Shown here piece after piece: positions 1,172-6,870 of a stretch of DNA of 64,000 nucleotides (positions are counted from its first letter, which is position 1; the number at the start of each line of letters is the position of its first letter). The position numbers and the translations under genes were made by a program. Source of the stretch: Salinisphaera sp. (GTDB lineage Bacteria; Pseudomonadota; Gammaproteobacteria; Nevskiales; Salinisphaeraceae). Under the pieces are notes generated by a model that was not told the DNA's origin, ran no database searches, and saw only the letters and a program-made list of their open reading frames with translations. Location: assembly GCA_027858915.1 (NCBI GenBank), contig JAQIBT010000092.1, positions 35,947-99,946 on the forward strand. Reading direction: 5' to 3'.

Positions 1172-1432
1172 CAGGCTGTGTGGGACTGACCGGCAGCGGA
1201 CTTTCCGGCCAGGGGCTGTCATGCAACCAACCAAAACCTGAGCCACTGCGTGTCCGACAGTCGCGCCGCAGAGGGGCCGAGGCAGCTCGCCTTATTACTT
1301 CGAAAACAATTGTCTATTTTATCGCAAGAATAATATTTACGGTGGCGGTCGGTCGAGACCGACGGAGCGCTGCCGTGCGCGCGTTGTGATACGGTCGGAT
1401 CAGTATTTTCGCGACCTAATCTTGGAGACCAA
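1172..1432. other. Intergenic region with AT-rich patch
   Basis: 261 bases without a convincing gene. An AT-rich patch at about 1290-1340 (several A/T runs, TATTTTATCG, AATAATATTTAC) stands out from the GC-rich surroundings. It may hold the promoter of the following papain-like gene. No hairpin followed by a T run was seen behind amiE. Confidence 0.4.
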
Positions 1433-3418
1433 TTGCCTCAGGCAGATCCAGCGGAAGCCGGACTACGCTCTCGCTTCAAGGACGACTTTGAGCGCGCGTT
1501 GTCGCGCCTCGAGTCATCGCCCAGCTTTTCCAAGATTACACATCAGTCTCAGGTGCTGGCACGAGCTCAGAAGCTGCTTAAGGACGAAGACGGCATCGCT
1601 GCGCTTTACACGCATGCCGCGCGTTTTGATCCGGCCGGCGTATTCACTGGAAGCGACTGGGATTACCCGCAGATTCTCGAGCCATCTCTGGCCGGTTCCA
1701 CCCTGCGACAGCGCGGGCCTAGCGCTACGCTTGAGTGCCTTAGCGAGCTGCGTCTGCTGGCGATTTCCCAACGGAAGGCCACGCACGCGGCGATCGACGC
1801 AGAGCACGCGCGCAGGTTCCTGGAGCAGGTGCTGGCGGCGAACCTGGATATGCTCTTCCCGGTCGCCACAGAAACCGCACGGGCGCTGGATAGCGGCGCA
1901 CTGGAGCGCGTGCAGTCTCTTTTTGGCTTCATTCTCTCGCGGATCGGTACGCAGGCAATTATCGCCGAGGTGCTTGCCGAGGTGGAACGGGTTCTGCTGC
2001 AGCGACCGATCATGGTTGAGCGAGCCGAATCCCTGTTGCGCTCAGCCGAGAAAGGGCTTGAACAATTCGCCGGGGAAGACACCACCGTTCGCGTCGCACG
2101 GCACTGGATCGGCGCGCTTCGTGGGCCGAGCGTTCTCGCCCAGACCTACTCGGCTGAGGCGTACTCCAGCGCACTCGCCGAGTGTGACGATGAATCTCTG
2201 GCAGCCGAGGCCGGTGTCTTCGGCGCGTCAATGAACGAAACCGGCCTGGTTTCAGCTCAACACGCCGACCTGCTGCGTCACCTGGTCGATATGGCCCCCG
2301 ATCTGCTGCCATTGGCGCTGGCGCTCAACGATGTCGGCAAGGTCAGCATCGAAGCGTTTGCATCGCAGGTTGCCGAAATCATCCAGTTCGCGATTGTCCC
2401 GCAGACCGCGCGCTCGATTTACGGCCTGTCGCGTCTGTTGAATGCCGGCACGTTGTTTTCGAGGCCAGTTCTACCCGGGCTTCGGCGCATCATGCTGCTG
2501 GACATCGATGCCGAGGTTGCCAGCGAGCTGCAGGCGGGCAGTGAATGGCAACACCCGCCTTCGGCCAACGTCTTGTTGCTGGCTGGAACTCTTTCCGTAT
2601 TGGGCCGGCCACGCGGTGTGGACCAGGGGTTCAACCCGACCTGTCAGTCGGCACGTGCGATCAGCCTCTGGGCCCAAAACGATATCGGCTATCTGCTGGA
2701 GTTGATCGCCTATGCGGCACGCGAAGACGACATGGTCGTACAGTTCGAGGCAAAAACCCTGTGTTCCAGCGAGCTGGCCACCGGTATGGCCAAGGAGCTG
2801 CATACCGAGCTCGATACGGTTTCGCTTTTGCTCACGCCGCACATCGACCGGCTTTATGTCGAAATGGGCCGGCTGACCATCGGCCGCCCCGGCGACGGCC
2901 ATCGATGGGTCAACCCGGAGTTGCATGGTTGGTGGGTCAGCCGCGGGTTCGCGCAGTTGATCGATATCGCCAACGGCGCGATCCACGACCTGGACGGCTT
3001 CGCGCGGCTGTTCTACAGCGCTTATCACCCGTTGTACAACGGCGGCCGGGACCTGGTCTATGCTCAGCCCTGCGGCATCGCCTCGACCGATACGACCGGC
3101 GTATTCCTGGGCTGGCACGCGATATCCATACAGCGCGTCGCACCGGATCCGGACGGCCGATGGCGCGTGTACTTCTTCAATCCAAACCGCGAAAAAGGCC
3201 AGAACTGGGGCCAGGGCATCGTAACCTCGACCAACGATGCAGACGAGCTGGAAGGCGAGTCGTCGCTTGTGTTCGAGCAGTTCCTTTCGCGACTGTACGT
3301 CTTTCATTACAAGCCCAGCGAGCTGGGTGATCCGGACGCCGTACCCTCGGAACTTGTCGAGCCGGTGCGTGAGCTGGTCGTCAACGGCTGGGGCGTCCAA
3401 TTCGGTTGGTCCGAATAG
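1433..3418 (+). CDS. Putative papain-like cysteine peptidase with large helical N-terminal domain
   Basis: Unrecognised 661-residue protein. Residues 1-390 are Leu/Ala/Glu-rich and probably helical, with no signal peptide or membrane span. The C-terminal 265 residues carry what I read as a clan CA layout: Gln398 lies six residues before Cys404 (VDQGFNPTCQSARAISLW), the spacing of papain Gln19/Cys25. His562 is in GWHAISI. Asn583 is in FFNPN, followed by GQNWGQG, like the papain Asn-Ser-Trp-Gly segment. This suggests a cytosolic cysteine peptidase or transferase; the substrate is unknown. The start is TTG, chosen because GGAG sits 5 bases upstream (1424-1427) and no better in-frame start exists. 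It is monocistronic, ending before a bidirectional terminator. Function is inference only. Confidence 0.8.
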   Translation: MPQADPAEAGLRSRFKDDFERALSRLESSPSFSKITHQSQVLARAQKLLKDEDGIAALYTHAARFDPAGVFTGSDWDYPQILEPSLAGSTLRQRGPSATLECLSELRLLAISQRKATHAAIDAEHARRFLEQVLAANLDMLFPVATETARALDSGALERVQSLFGFILSRIGTQAIIAEVLAEVERVLLQRPIMVERAESLLRSAEKGLEQFAGEDTTVRVARHWIGALRGPSVLAQTYSAEAYSSALAECDDESLAAEAGVFGASMNETGLVSAQHADLLRHLVDMAPDLLPLALALNDVGKVSIEAFASQVAEIIQFAIVPQTARSIYGLSRLLNAGTLFSRPVLPGLRRIMLLDIDAEVASELQAGSEWQHPPSANVLLLAGTLSVLGRPRGVDQGFNPTCQSARAISLWAQNDIGYLLELIAYAAREDDMVVQFEAKTLCSSELATGMAKELHTELDTVSLLLTPHIDRLYVEMGRLTIGRPGDGHRWVNPELHGWWVSRGFAQLIDIANGAIHDLDGFARLFYSAYHPLYNGGRDLVYAQPCGIASTDTTGVFLGWHAISIQRVAPDPDGRWRVYFFNPNREKGQNWGQGIVTSTNDADELEGESSLVFEQFLSRLYVFHYKPSELGDPDAVPSELVEPVRELVVNGWGVQFGWSE

Positions 3419-3654: not shown

Positions 3655-4881
3655 CTAGACGTAGTAGTCGAGCTCTTCCTGATGCTTGAGCAGATCACGC
3701 ATTGTGTGCGCGTCCTCACCGAAGAAGAACACCAGGCCCCAGTGGGTACCGAAGGCGTTGCGCTTGGTGACGGTTTCCTGCATTGGCGCCGTGAGTTCGT
3801 GGAAATCGAAATACGGATGATCTTCGACTTCCGACGGAATCTCCAGCTTGCTGACCACGCGCTTGCGCGGATACACGCCGAAACAACCAGCCACGCCCTT
3901 GGCCCCGGTCACTTCTTCCGGGAAGAATGCCTCCACTTCCTCGGCCGTCGTCTTCGGGTCGAATACGAGGATCGATGCCTGATAGGCATTGAAGCCATAG
4001 GCACGCTCGATCAGCTCGAACGCCTTGAAGCCCGGTGGGCGATAAGCCACTTCACCAAAGTACATGGTGCCATCGCTGGTCACAAAGTACTCCGGATGAA
4101 TCTGACCAAACCTGATATCGAACGCCTCGATCAGCAATTCAATCTGCTTGGTGATCAGATTACGCCAGGATTCGAGCTCCGGCGTGGCCGGCACGAATAC
4201 CGAATACCCGAGCGTCACGTATTCCGAGATATTCAGGAATTGGATCTTGCCATCCCAGATCCAGGCTTCGACCGCGAACTCCCAGCCGTCGAGATGGCTT
4301 TCCATCAACAACGGATATTCGGAATCCGGGATCAGCTCGATCTCGTCGGCCGACTTGATCATGCGATGACCCAGGCAACCCGCCTTGTCGAACGCCTTCA
4401 GATGGATCGGATCCTCGGGGTCGCCGTCCAGCTTGAGCAGGGTCTGATTGACTCGCTTGAAGAAGCGTACAACATCGTCTTTTTCGTGGGCTTCCTCGAA
4501 GATGCCGACACGAATCCCGCCCAGCTGTGCGCGGCGTTTCATCAACGCCTTGTCGCGGAACAGCACCGCCTGGCCGTGCAGCCGCGGGTTCTTCATGATC
4601 ACGGCGTTGATCGCACCGGCCCACTCGACCACCTCCTCGAACAACGGCACGGCAGCATCCACGCCCTCGTCCCGTAGTCGTTCCGCGATCTCCAGCGAGC
4701 GGTCATTCAGACGCTCGAAGTTCCACGGGATATAAGGAATGTCGTGTTCCTTGCAGTAGTCCTCGGCCCACTCCGGAGCGACCACCACAAAGCGACGATC
4801 AAAGTTTTCTGCGGCCTCGATCGCGCCGATCGACCAACCTAGCAAGGCTATATAGCCTTTATCCGGGTTTTTCTCTGCCAT
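3655..4881 (-). CDS. ATP-grasp domain protein
   Basis: A 408-residue protein with the layout of an ATP-grasp ligase. It has an N-terminal pre-ATP-grasp region, a central nucleotide-binding region (LLKLDGDPEDPIHLKAFDK, then MESHLDGWEFAVEAW) and a C-terminal metal-binding motif (YFGEVAYRPPG). The family joins a carboxylate to an amine or thiol through an acyl-phosphate; the substrate cannot be told from sequence. The ATG at 4881 is preferred over the GTG at 4914 because GGAG lies 5 bases ahead of it. No pathway neighbour is adjacent: it is separated from the Sir2 gene by about 430 bases and ends at the shared bidirectional terminator. Confidence 0.82.
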   Translation of the reverse strand: MAEKNPDKGYIALLGWSIGAIEAAENFDRRFVVVAPEWAEDYCKEHDIPYIPWNFERLNDRSLEIAERLRDEGVDAAVPLFEEVVEWAGAINAVIMKNPRLHGQAVLFRDKALMKRRAQLGGIRVGIFEEAHEKDDVVRFFKRVNQTLLKLDGDPEDPIHLKAFDKAGCLGHRMIKSADEIELIPDSEYPLLMESHLDGWEFAVEAWIWDGKIQFLNISEYVTLGYSVFVPATPELESWRNLITKQIELLIEAFDIRFGQIHPEYFVTSDGTMYFGEVAYRPPGFKAFELIERAYGFNAYQASILVFDPKTTAEEVEAFFPEEVTGAKGVAGCFGVYPRKRVVSKLEIPSEVEDHPYFDFHELTAPMQETVTKRNAFGTHWGLVFFFGEDAHTMRDLLKHQEELDYYV

Positions 4882-5317
4882 TTTTGCTCCATTGGGAACG
4901 ATTTGTAATTCCACGGTAGCACACTAAGCCGACGTAGCCGGCCCGACGTCGGTCGTGCAGTTCGCGAAGAGGCACTTGTCGTCTGCGGCCGATGGCCCGC
5001 GCATCTGCTTTCGACCAGCCGGGACAGAGCGGTGCCGCGGACGGCGGATATTTCACCGTGGCTGGCCGGCAACAACCGCTCCGAACCTCAGGCCGCCAAT
5101 ATAGATACCGAATCTGTATTGACTCATGCCATCCCCGGTAACGATGCGCCACAGCCGCGCCGGTCTTGATACCCAAGTCAACCAACATGCCCGATAGTCA
5201 ATAGCTGCTCAGCAGTCGCGGAGGCTCACGAACTCAAGATTGATCAAGCGCCTGTTGGGCTTTGGCATTCCGTAGCGGGCAAACCAGGTTCGACCTCCGA
5301 CAGGCAGATCGGAAGAC
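4882..5317. other. Intergenic region, no gene recognised
   Basis: About 435 bases between the divergently ended Sir2 gene and the ATP-grasp gene, both on the minus strand. Short open frames here have no SD and no recognisable protein features. The part near 4882-4960 should hold the promoter of the ATP-grasp gene. I see no repeat or RNA structure. Confidence 0.4.
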
Positions 5318-6166
5318 TCAATCTATCGCGGCATCGAGCGAAGCGCCGCAGTCGGCATCAATCTTCTCGTTAATCAGCTCGTCGGCACGCGTACGACCGC
5401 GATTGACCGATAAGATCGGCAGCCCCTGACGCGCCGCCTCGCGGACAAAACGGAAACCCGACCAGACCATCAACGACGAACCGGCGACCAGCACCGCGTC
5501 GGAGCCAGCCAGCCCTGACCAGCCTCGTGCCACGCGCGTGCCCGGGACCGCACCGCCGAAAAACACGACATCCGGTTTGAGAATGCCACCGCATAAGGGG
5601 CAATCGGGCACGTTGAATGCCTCATAATCGACATCGCCCAGCTCGATGTCCCCATCTGGTCGCATGGCATCTGCATCGTGCAACCAGCCCGCATTCATAT
5701 CGATCAGCATATCCTGCACACGATGCCGCGACAGGCGATTGTCACATTGCAGACAGACCACGCGATCCAGCCGACCATGCAGATCCACAACGCCGCGGCT
5801 ACCCGCGCTCTGGTGCAGTCCGTCGACGTTCTGGGTCACCAGCATCGACAGACCGCCCCGAGCCCCCAGCCGTGCGACTGCATGATGGCCGGGGTTGGGC
5901 GTGGCGCGTGCCACCGGTGGCCAACCTGCCATGCTGCGCGCCCAGTAACGACGCCGTTTGGACAGCTGATTTACGAAGGCCTGGTGCTGGATTGGCGCCG
6001 CCCCTTTCCAGCCACCGTCGCGATCCCGATAATCAGGAATGCCGGAGCCAGTGCTGATGCCGGCACCGGTTAGTACGAAAATCCGTTTATATGTCGTCAG
6101 AAAGGCTGTCAGCCGTTCGACCTGTTCTGCGGTAGGCATCACCATCTGCGCTTTCGCGCAGCTCAT
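5318..6166 (-). CDS. Sir2-family NAD-dependent protein deacylase
   Basis: A 282-residue sirtuin that removes acyl groups from lysines using NAD+. Visible elements are the NAD-binding GAGIS (34-38) followed by [17 protein letters not shown] (111-118), the catalytic His130 in DLHG, and two zinc-binding Cys pairs (Cys138/Cys141 and Cys189/Cys192). The [15 protein letters not shown] segment resembles class II (SIRT4-like) sirtuins. The open frame runs much further upstream, but its ATG at 6166 overlaps the stop of the HAD gene as ATGA and the upstream part is not sirtuin-like, so 6166 is chosen. The overlap implies translational coupling to the HAD hydrolase. Confidence 0.9.
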
Positions 6167-6870
6167 TGTCCGCACCGCCGGCAAACACCGCGCGCTGCAA
6201 GATCTGCGGCCAGGGTGTGGGCATCGGTAAACAGCAGAGCCTGCCAGCCGGCCTCGATAGCGCCGTCGATATTGATCTGACGATCGTCGATGAGCAGGCA
6301 ATGCTCCGGGACACTGCTCAGCCCAGCGGCCACTGCGTCGTAACCCCGCCGGTCGGGCTTCGCGTAGCCGATTTCCTGAGAGGCATACGCGTATTCGATA
6401 TACTCGAAAAAACCGTAGTGACGGCGCATATACGCCCAATGCACCGGGTTGGTGTTGCTGTAGCAGGCGATCCGCCAGTCAGCGGCGAGTTCTGCCAGCA
6501 AGGCAACCATATCGGCTTTTTCACCCCGCAGGATTTCCTCGATCGCCTGTTCAAGGATCGTCGTGCTAATCGGTTTACGCAGCGTTCGATTGAGCTCGTC
6601 AGCGAAGCGATTCAGATTCAGCTCGCCGAGCTGGAACCGTTCGGCCGCCGAAAACGGCTTCTCCACGAAACGCTCGCGCAGAAGGTCGGCGAGAACAGCC
6701 GGGTCGGTCGCCGTGCGTCGGGCCAGTTCGGCAATGATTTCTGCGCCCGGCGCGACCTCGACCAACACGCCGCCAAGGTCGAACACCAGCCATTCGACGG
6801 CTGGAGCATGGGAGTTGTGCGATGGATGCGGGCTCGTCGGCATAGCATGCAGAATACGCCGGGCCGACAC
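6163..6870 (-). CDS. HAD-superfamily hydrolase, subfamily IA
   Basis: A 235-residue (or 226-residue) haloacid-dehalogenase-like phosphatase. Motif I is FDLGGVL, in which the usual second aspartate is Gly, as in YihX-type sugar-phosphate phosphatases. Motif II is the SNTNP segment, motif III AKPDRRGY and motif IV LIDDRQIN. A sugar phosphate or nucleotide substrate is likely but not deducible. Start is uncertain between GTG 6870 and ATG 6843; neither has a clear SD. It lies 16 bases after the acyl-CoA-binding protein gene and its stop overlaps the Sir2 start, so the three probably form one transcript. Confidence 0.87.
   Translation of the reverse strand: MSARRILHAMPTSPHPSHNSHAPAVEWLVFDLGGVLVEVAPGAEIIAELARRTATDPAVLADLLRERFVEKPFSAAERFQLGELNLNRFADELNRTLRKPISTTILEQAIEEILRGEKADMVALLAELAADWRIACYSNTNPVHWAYMRRHYGFFEYIEYAYASQEIGYAKPDRRGYDAVAAGLSSVPEHCLLIDDRQINIDGAIEAGWQALLFTDAHTLAADLAARGVCRRCGQ

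Follow-up and report, generated by a model that had tools for sequence, protein, structure and literature searches.

A bacterial protein family with a predicted papain-like catalytic domain and a constant ATP-grasp partner

What does a large bacterial protein do that carries the residues of a papain-like active site but matches no Pfam or NCBIfam family? The question is raised by a 64,000-nucleotide stretch of DNA from Salinisphaera sp. (GenBank assembly GCA_027858915.1, contig JAQIBT010000092.1, positions 35,947 to 99,946 of the forward strand; hereafter the window), in which an open reading frame (ORF) at 1433..3418 on the + strand encodes a protein of 661 residues that we call Q. A first-pass annotation, made from the sequence alone, had seen in Q an undescribed papain-like peptidase module. 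Our analysis shows that the suspected active-site residues are invariant in all relatives compared and that the gene goes together with one for a predicted ATP-grasp ligase. We tentatively favour the reading that Q is a cytosolic papain-fold cysteine amidase, forming half of a two-enzyme module with this ATP-grasp amino-acid ligase.

The predicted catalytic domain of Q

The ORF of Q begins with TTG, and a few bases upstream lies GGAGA (1424..1428, +), a motif resembling a ribosome-binding site. The extent of the ORF and the positions of the residues singled out at first pass proved correct: Gln398 (2624..2626), Cys404 (2642..2644), His562 (3116..3118), which opens HAISI, Asn583 (3179..3181), and Trp592-Gly593 (3206..3211) within NWGQG, all on the + strand. 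The first-pass annotation had proposed checking the four catalytic candidates by an alignment of homologues, and they are conserved without exception. In an alignment (A1) of the window protein with 72 of 120 listed relatives (46-82% identity to Q), Q398, C404, H562, N583, W592, and G593 are invariant in 73/73 sequences. A wider set consisted of the reference and 122 fetched rows, each with 450 or more residues aligned; one row is the window's own gene, and some rows are from the same or near-identical genomes. Here Q398, C404, H562, N583, and W592 are invariant in all 123 rows, including nine diverged tandem paralogues, and G593 is changed in two of these nine paralogues and nowhere else. This Gln-Cys-His-Asn pattern with its W-G pair is far beyond chance.

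Conservation is concentrated in one part of the protein. Of 34 columns invariant in the 123 rows, 33 fall within residues 390-625, which make up 36% of the length, and only one (G271) is N-terminal; a simple binomial estimate that ignores kinship puts such clustering at ~4e-14. The invariant columns include, besides the catalytic candidates, E439, D488, H490, R568, R578, Y580, N585, Q590, E605, E609, S611, and H625. Because so many polar residues other than the catalytic candidates never vary, the domain at 390-625 would be expected to bind one fixed, polar substrate. Together with the constant ATP-grasp partner described below, the same residues speak against a general peptidase and in favour of an amidase or transacylase that acts on a single specific substrate.

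A structure model of Q, with a predicted local distance difference test (pLDDT) score of 92.1, divides the protein into an all-helical region (residues 1-371; 1433..2545, +), which holds the single N-terminal invariant position, and a predicted papain-like catalytic domain (residues 372-661; 2546..3415, +). By DSSP assignment of the model, Cys404, the predicted nucleophile, is the first residue of the helix 404-416; His562, the predicted catalytic base, lies in the strand 558-571; and Asn583, the predicted third residue, directly follows the strand 577-582. A separate model of the C-terminal domain gave the same papain topology for Cys, His, and Asn. The predicted layout is thus that of clan CA, with the cysteine at a helix start, the histidine on a strand, and a third polar residue after the next strand; Gln398, the predicted oxyanion-hole residue, stands six residues before the cysteine in 123/123 rows. 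The C-terminal domain model also resembles solved clan members: its structural matches (VIA) were calpains first and then staphopains, calpain cores being the best. A Foldseek search with the full-length model listed mostly large helical proteins, along with a few papain-like chains, and the N-terminal region gave short matches to helical-repeat proteins, as read from their titles.

Q has many relatives. At least 734 passed E 0.001 (the 7996 best candidates were scored and 120 listed), and a distant Q paralogue as query found 92. Nearly all listed relatives are named "hypothetical protein" or "uncharacterized protein". Named sources in both listings include Salinisphaera, Bacillaceae, and actinobacteria (Nocardia, Saccharopolyspora, Hoyosella), along with a myxococcote, a Cyclobacteriaceae, and a Dehalococcoidia bacterium; our impression from record titles is that salt-loving bacteria are prominent among the 80 best-scoring of 583 hits, the query being from a Salinisphaera-like genome. 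No other family was recognisable in Q, as the first-pass annotation had maintained: Pfam and NCBIfam gave no match at E 10, and no Pfam family was common to more than one of the 73 members of A1, even at E 0.1. The Protein Data Bank (PDB) yielded nothing usable by sequence, either with Q alone (E 0.67-2.1, unrelated molecules) or with the A1 profile (E 6.6). The family is in none of the profile libraries searched (Pfam, NCBIfam, and PADLOC); the fold itself is already known. Two automatic UniRef names are odd ones out, that of P0012 (Zorya ZorC EH domain), which was among the 73 members whose Pfam scan found no such domain, and that of P0174 (RelA/SpoT domain), which was outside that scan. In sum, the papain-like module is supported by conservation, predicted topology, and structural matches, while the description of Q as an orphan must be dropped and a general peptidase is disfavoured.

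The ATP-grasp partner gene

On the 3' side of Q, and convergent with it, the window carries a gene for a predicted ATP-grasp ligase (3655..4914, - strand). As a single sequence this protein stays below the Pfam cut-off for ATP-grasp_4 (19.7 bits against a gathering score of 27); its matches include two L-amino acid ligases (E 0.001-0.003). With 33 sequences combined into a profile (A3), most of the length of the partner protein aligned to the L-amino acid ligase 4wd3 (E 3.5e-12). Further matches were 4dim, in its deposit a phosphoribosylglycinamide synthetase (E 1.1e-6), and BL00235, 3vot, in a partial alignment (E 1.9e-6).

When the fetched DNA was searched by tblastn, the ATP-grasp gene was found at most 1.3 kb from Q in 83 of 100 loci, a few of which come from the same or near-identical genomes. 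It lies upstream on the same strand in 62 of these 83 loci, downstream and convergent in 20, and downstream on the same strand in one. This count replaces an ORF-based adjacency of 70 loci. Among the 17 loci without the gene, seven (L008, L013, L023, L024, L032, L067, and L086) offer only 50-448 bases on one side, four (L017-L020) hold the second paralogue of Salinisphaera, flanked by 1.5 kb, and six have longer flanks on both sides, the gene being elsewhere in all six genomes. All 15 locus genomes searched contain Q and 14 contain the ATP-grasp gene, the exception (G067) being metagenome-assembled. One group of neighbour ORFs (cluster 15) was rejected as an artefact, because its members run antisense to the ATP-grasp gene in genomes of high GC content. 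Several long neighbour ORFs in the 45-locus listing look the same. In a contig labelled Phormidium willei (L098), Q groups among gammaproteobacterial sequences and the ATP-grasp protein is 73% identical to that of the window, reflecting contamination or transfer.

The two genes also occur in exactly the same genomes. This was so for 17 of 61 relatives (E <= 0.001), for 13 of 369 genomes of the class, or 9 of 271 genera (E <= 1e-20 for Q and <= 1e-60 for ATP-grasp), and for 25 of 44 genomes in the family to which a Halobacillus locus belongs (E <= 1e-20, with the Halobacillus Q as query). No genome with only one of the two was found in these three sets, which share a few genomes, at the thresholds used. 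For the class set, the chance of identical distributions is ~10^-23 by genomes and 10^-16 by genera, not corrected for phylogeny. Because the genes go together, Q and the ATP-grasp enzyme likely act on one amide-bonded molecule, which one of them forms and the other breaks down.

Of the 25 genomes in the Halobacillus family set, four carry two full copies of both genes, and in G458 each gene is present once in full and once as a partial copy. In G453 (C1:253728-255687) Q is split into two frames, whose overlapping pieces match the Halobacillus query at 95% and 99% identity, and one ATP-grasp gene stands just before it. In most Salinisphaera genomes there is another Q, at 41-44% identity, but no further copy of the ATP-grasp gene; of the two kinds of Q, one genome (G005) has only this second one. 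In a tree made by a quick method with midpoint root, the seven second copies that were fetched cluster together, and so, separately, do nine tandem paralogues from Bacillota; one more row, assigned to the latter by an identity cut, falls elsewhere. Both Q genes of a locus labelled Chryseobacterium sp. ISL-80 (L058) group inside Bacillaceae, which makes the organism label doubtful.

Other recurrent neighbours

Three further links, all to the acylation of amines, recur beside the pair. An HDAC-like gene is found there in 7 of 45 loci, representing six lineages by their place in the tree and five gene orders. The copy in L052 matches HDAC6 in the PDB at E 2e-108 and has no match in NCBIfam. In the Salinisphaera genome G012 the gene sits between Q and the ATP-grasp gene, and the near-identical locus L021 has no HDAC-like gene there; G012 has three HDAC-like genes and its relative G011 two. 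Since an HDAC-like gene is present in all 15 genomes searched, closeness to the pair is its only signal.

An AblB-family acetyltransferase (TIGR03827, over cut-off) accompanies the pair in 9 of 133 loci. It is the sole AblB in six of the nine genomes, the other three having a second AblB beside AblA, and AblA over the family cut-off is lacking in six of nine (five with none, one with a weak match). The linked AblB looks like a dedicated copy, and the lack of AblA in these six genomes suggests that it uses an amine other than beta-lysine. In three loci from Bacillaceae, two Q genes enclose arginine genes, as argC-argJ-argB-argD (L088; argC, argJ, and argD assigned by NCBIfam, argB by eye), argC-argJ-argB (L083), or argJ alone (L090). 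From these neighbours, the amine of the conjugate handled by the pair is probably an N-acylated diamino acid or a polyamine, ornithine- or lysine-like. One database entry, P0160 (928 residues), joins a shortened ArgJ (residues 15-291) to a whole Q paralogue, either as a natural in-frame fusion or through an assembly error.

Little weight was given to a GNAT gene near the pair in 20 of 133 loci, which we take to resemble B. subtilis YjbC and which may reflect simple synteny. Shortly past its ATP-grasp gene the window also holds a SIR2-family gene (5318-6439, -), with similar genes near the pair in L022, L025, and L026. Its relatives were seen at 6 of 133 loci, a count that takes in the window's own gene and a match that is short and partial; the gene was not used as evidence. 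Just 5' of Q lies an aliphatic amidase gene (128-1171, +; NCBIfam equivalog PRK13286), with close relatives (82-91%) in L014, L022, and L103, three fetched loci besides that of the window.

Possible function of the pair and its place among known systems

On the reading that we prefer, the ATP-grasp enzyme would form an amide from a carboxylate and an amine at the cost of ATP. An amide of that kind would be hydrolysed by Q, rather than serve it for acyl transfer: Cys404 would be the attacking residue, His562 and Asn583 would activate it, and Gln398 would lie in the oxyanion hole. Together, the two enzymes would set the level of one specific conjugate. A broader proposal, which we regard as rather unlikely, is that the pair constitutes an unrecognised pathway in several bacterial phyla, with apparent prominence in salt-loving species, for making and unmaking an amide conjugate of an N-acetylated diamino acid (ornithine- or lysine-like), possibly a compatible solute. 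In this pathway Q would carry out the release, and the acetyl group would be set by the enzymes of the linked genes, whether AblB, ArgJ, or HDAC-like. A solute of this kind is a candidate, because Halobacillus halophilus accumulates N-delta-acetylornithine and N-epsilon-acetyllysine, according to a passage of PMC2412884.

Constant pairing fits an acyl-transfer relay as well as it fits a cycle. The ATP-grasp enzyme would then activate or load an acyl group, Cys404 of Q would take it and pass it to an amine, and Q would make the amide; BtrJ and BtrH form a relay of that kind in butirosin synthesis. The papain-like folds treated in sections of PMC10318531 include transferases, BtrH and phytochelatin synthase among them, and papain-like transacylases in operons possibly with ATP-grasp enzymes are discussed in part of PMC2922099. 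No carrier protein was seen among the recurrent neighbours, a weak objection given that ORFs below 70 or below 90 residues were left out and few clusters annotated. Moreover, ATP-grasp amino-acid ligases usually finish the amide alone, and we consider the relay unlikely, if a genuine contender. The large helical N-terminal region, with its short matches to helical-repeat proteins, could instead dock a target protein to which the ATP-grasp enzyme adds an amino acid and from which Q removes it, in the manner of tubulin tyrosine ligase and vasohibin, a known pair of this type. Vasohibin is listed as papain-like in a portion of PMC10318531. However, no third gene recurs at these loci as constantly as the two themselves, so that none stands out as a target; just one of the 34 invariant positions falls in the N-terminal region; and AblB and ArgJ, where linked, act on free amino acids if their family names are a guide. 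Protein tagging is thus distinctly improbable in our view.

If Q were a papain-fold glutaminase, it could feed ammonia to the ATP-grasp enzyme, which would make a terminal amide. ATP-grasp and glutaminase do occur together, as in carbamoyl phosphate synthetase, and the constant pairing would agree. However, Q matched no amidotransferase family in Pfam or NCBIfam, the two genes are sometimes apart, and their copy numbers are unequal, which leaves such a supply route very improbable. We would give still less credence to a general cytosolic cysteine protease of the calpain kind, to which the calpain cores among the best structural matches might point. Against it stand the constant ATP-grasp partner, the many invariant polar residues outside the catalytic set, and the lack of any Pfam calpain or C1 match in Q at E 10 or of a recurrent one in the 73 members. 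That Q belongs to an anti-phage defence module, as the Zorya ZorC name of P0012 might hint, has next to nothing in its favour. No PADLOC model matched Q at E 10, the 73 members share no consistent Pfam match, and the search gave a single match among 72,556 plasmid records with none among 50,697 phage records; unlike patchy defence islands, Q is present in all 13 genomes of the same genus that were searched.

Thus, a large family of hypothetical proteins gains a predicted fold, a predicted catalytic centre, and a constant partner, which together make a testable two-enzyme pathway. Judging by search listings, no description of the pair was found in the open-licence literature of PubMed Central. 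Should the substrate be an N-acetylated diamino acid, the pathway would bear on solute handling in salt-tolerant bacteria. The proposal, if true, would also extend the papain-like fold by a new family; the fold is so diverse that further members are hard to find, as the abstract of PMC10318531 remarks.

Compared with papain, calpain, staphopain, and the cathepsins of clan CA, Q is alike in its predicted fold, in the Gln-Cys-His-Asn order, in the cysteine at a helix start, and in the W-G after the asparagine; it differs by the absence of a Pfam match, the long helical N-terminal region, and the ATP-grasp partner. That partner is similar by profile to L-amino acid ligases (4wd3; BL00235, 3vot), its single sequence falling short of ATP-grasp_4. 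The AblA/AblB pathway for N-epsilon-acetyl-beta-lysine touches the pair through the nine AblB-linked loci, but most of these genomes lack a qualifying AblA. BtrH-type and other papain-like acyltransferases likewise stand in operons with peptide ligases, as excerpts of PMC10318531 and PMC2922099 describe; the operons covered there have genes resembling aminoacyl-tRNA synthetases or genes for non-ribosomal peptide synthetases, and Q has no Pfam match to the BtrH-type family PF14399. The papain-like transacylases discussed in part of PMC2922099 also include a "New_papain" family.

A closer parallel may be the E. coli glutathionylspermidine synthetase/amidase (Gss), which likewise applies a papain-like amidase and an ATP-grasp-type ligase to one amide of an amine, the ligase for that amide being the second half of the protein. 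The CHAP domain of Gss is classed as papain-like in a passage of PMC10318531. Here, in contrast, two genes are involved, and the ATP-grasp enzyme resembles L-amino acid ligases. Because neither Gss domain family, CHAP amidase or GSP-synthetase, has a Pfam match in Q or in the ATP-grasp protein, the relation is one of analogy and not of membership; as an analogy, Gss is the nearest working counterpart of the Q pair.
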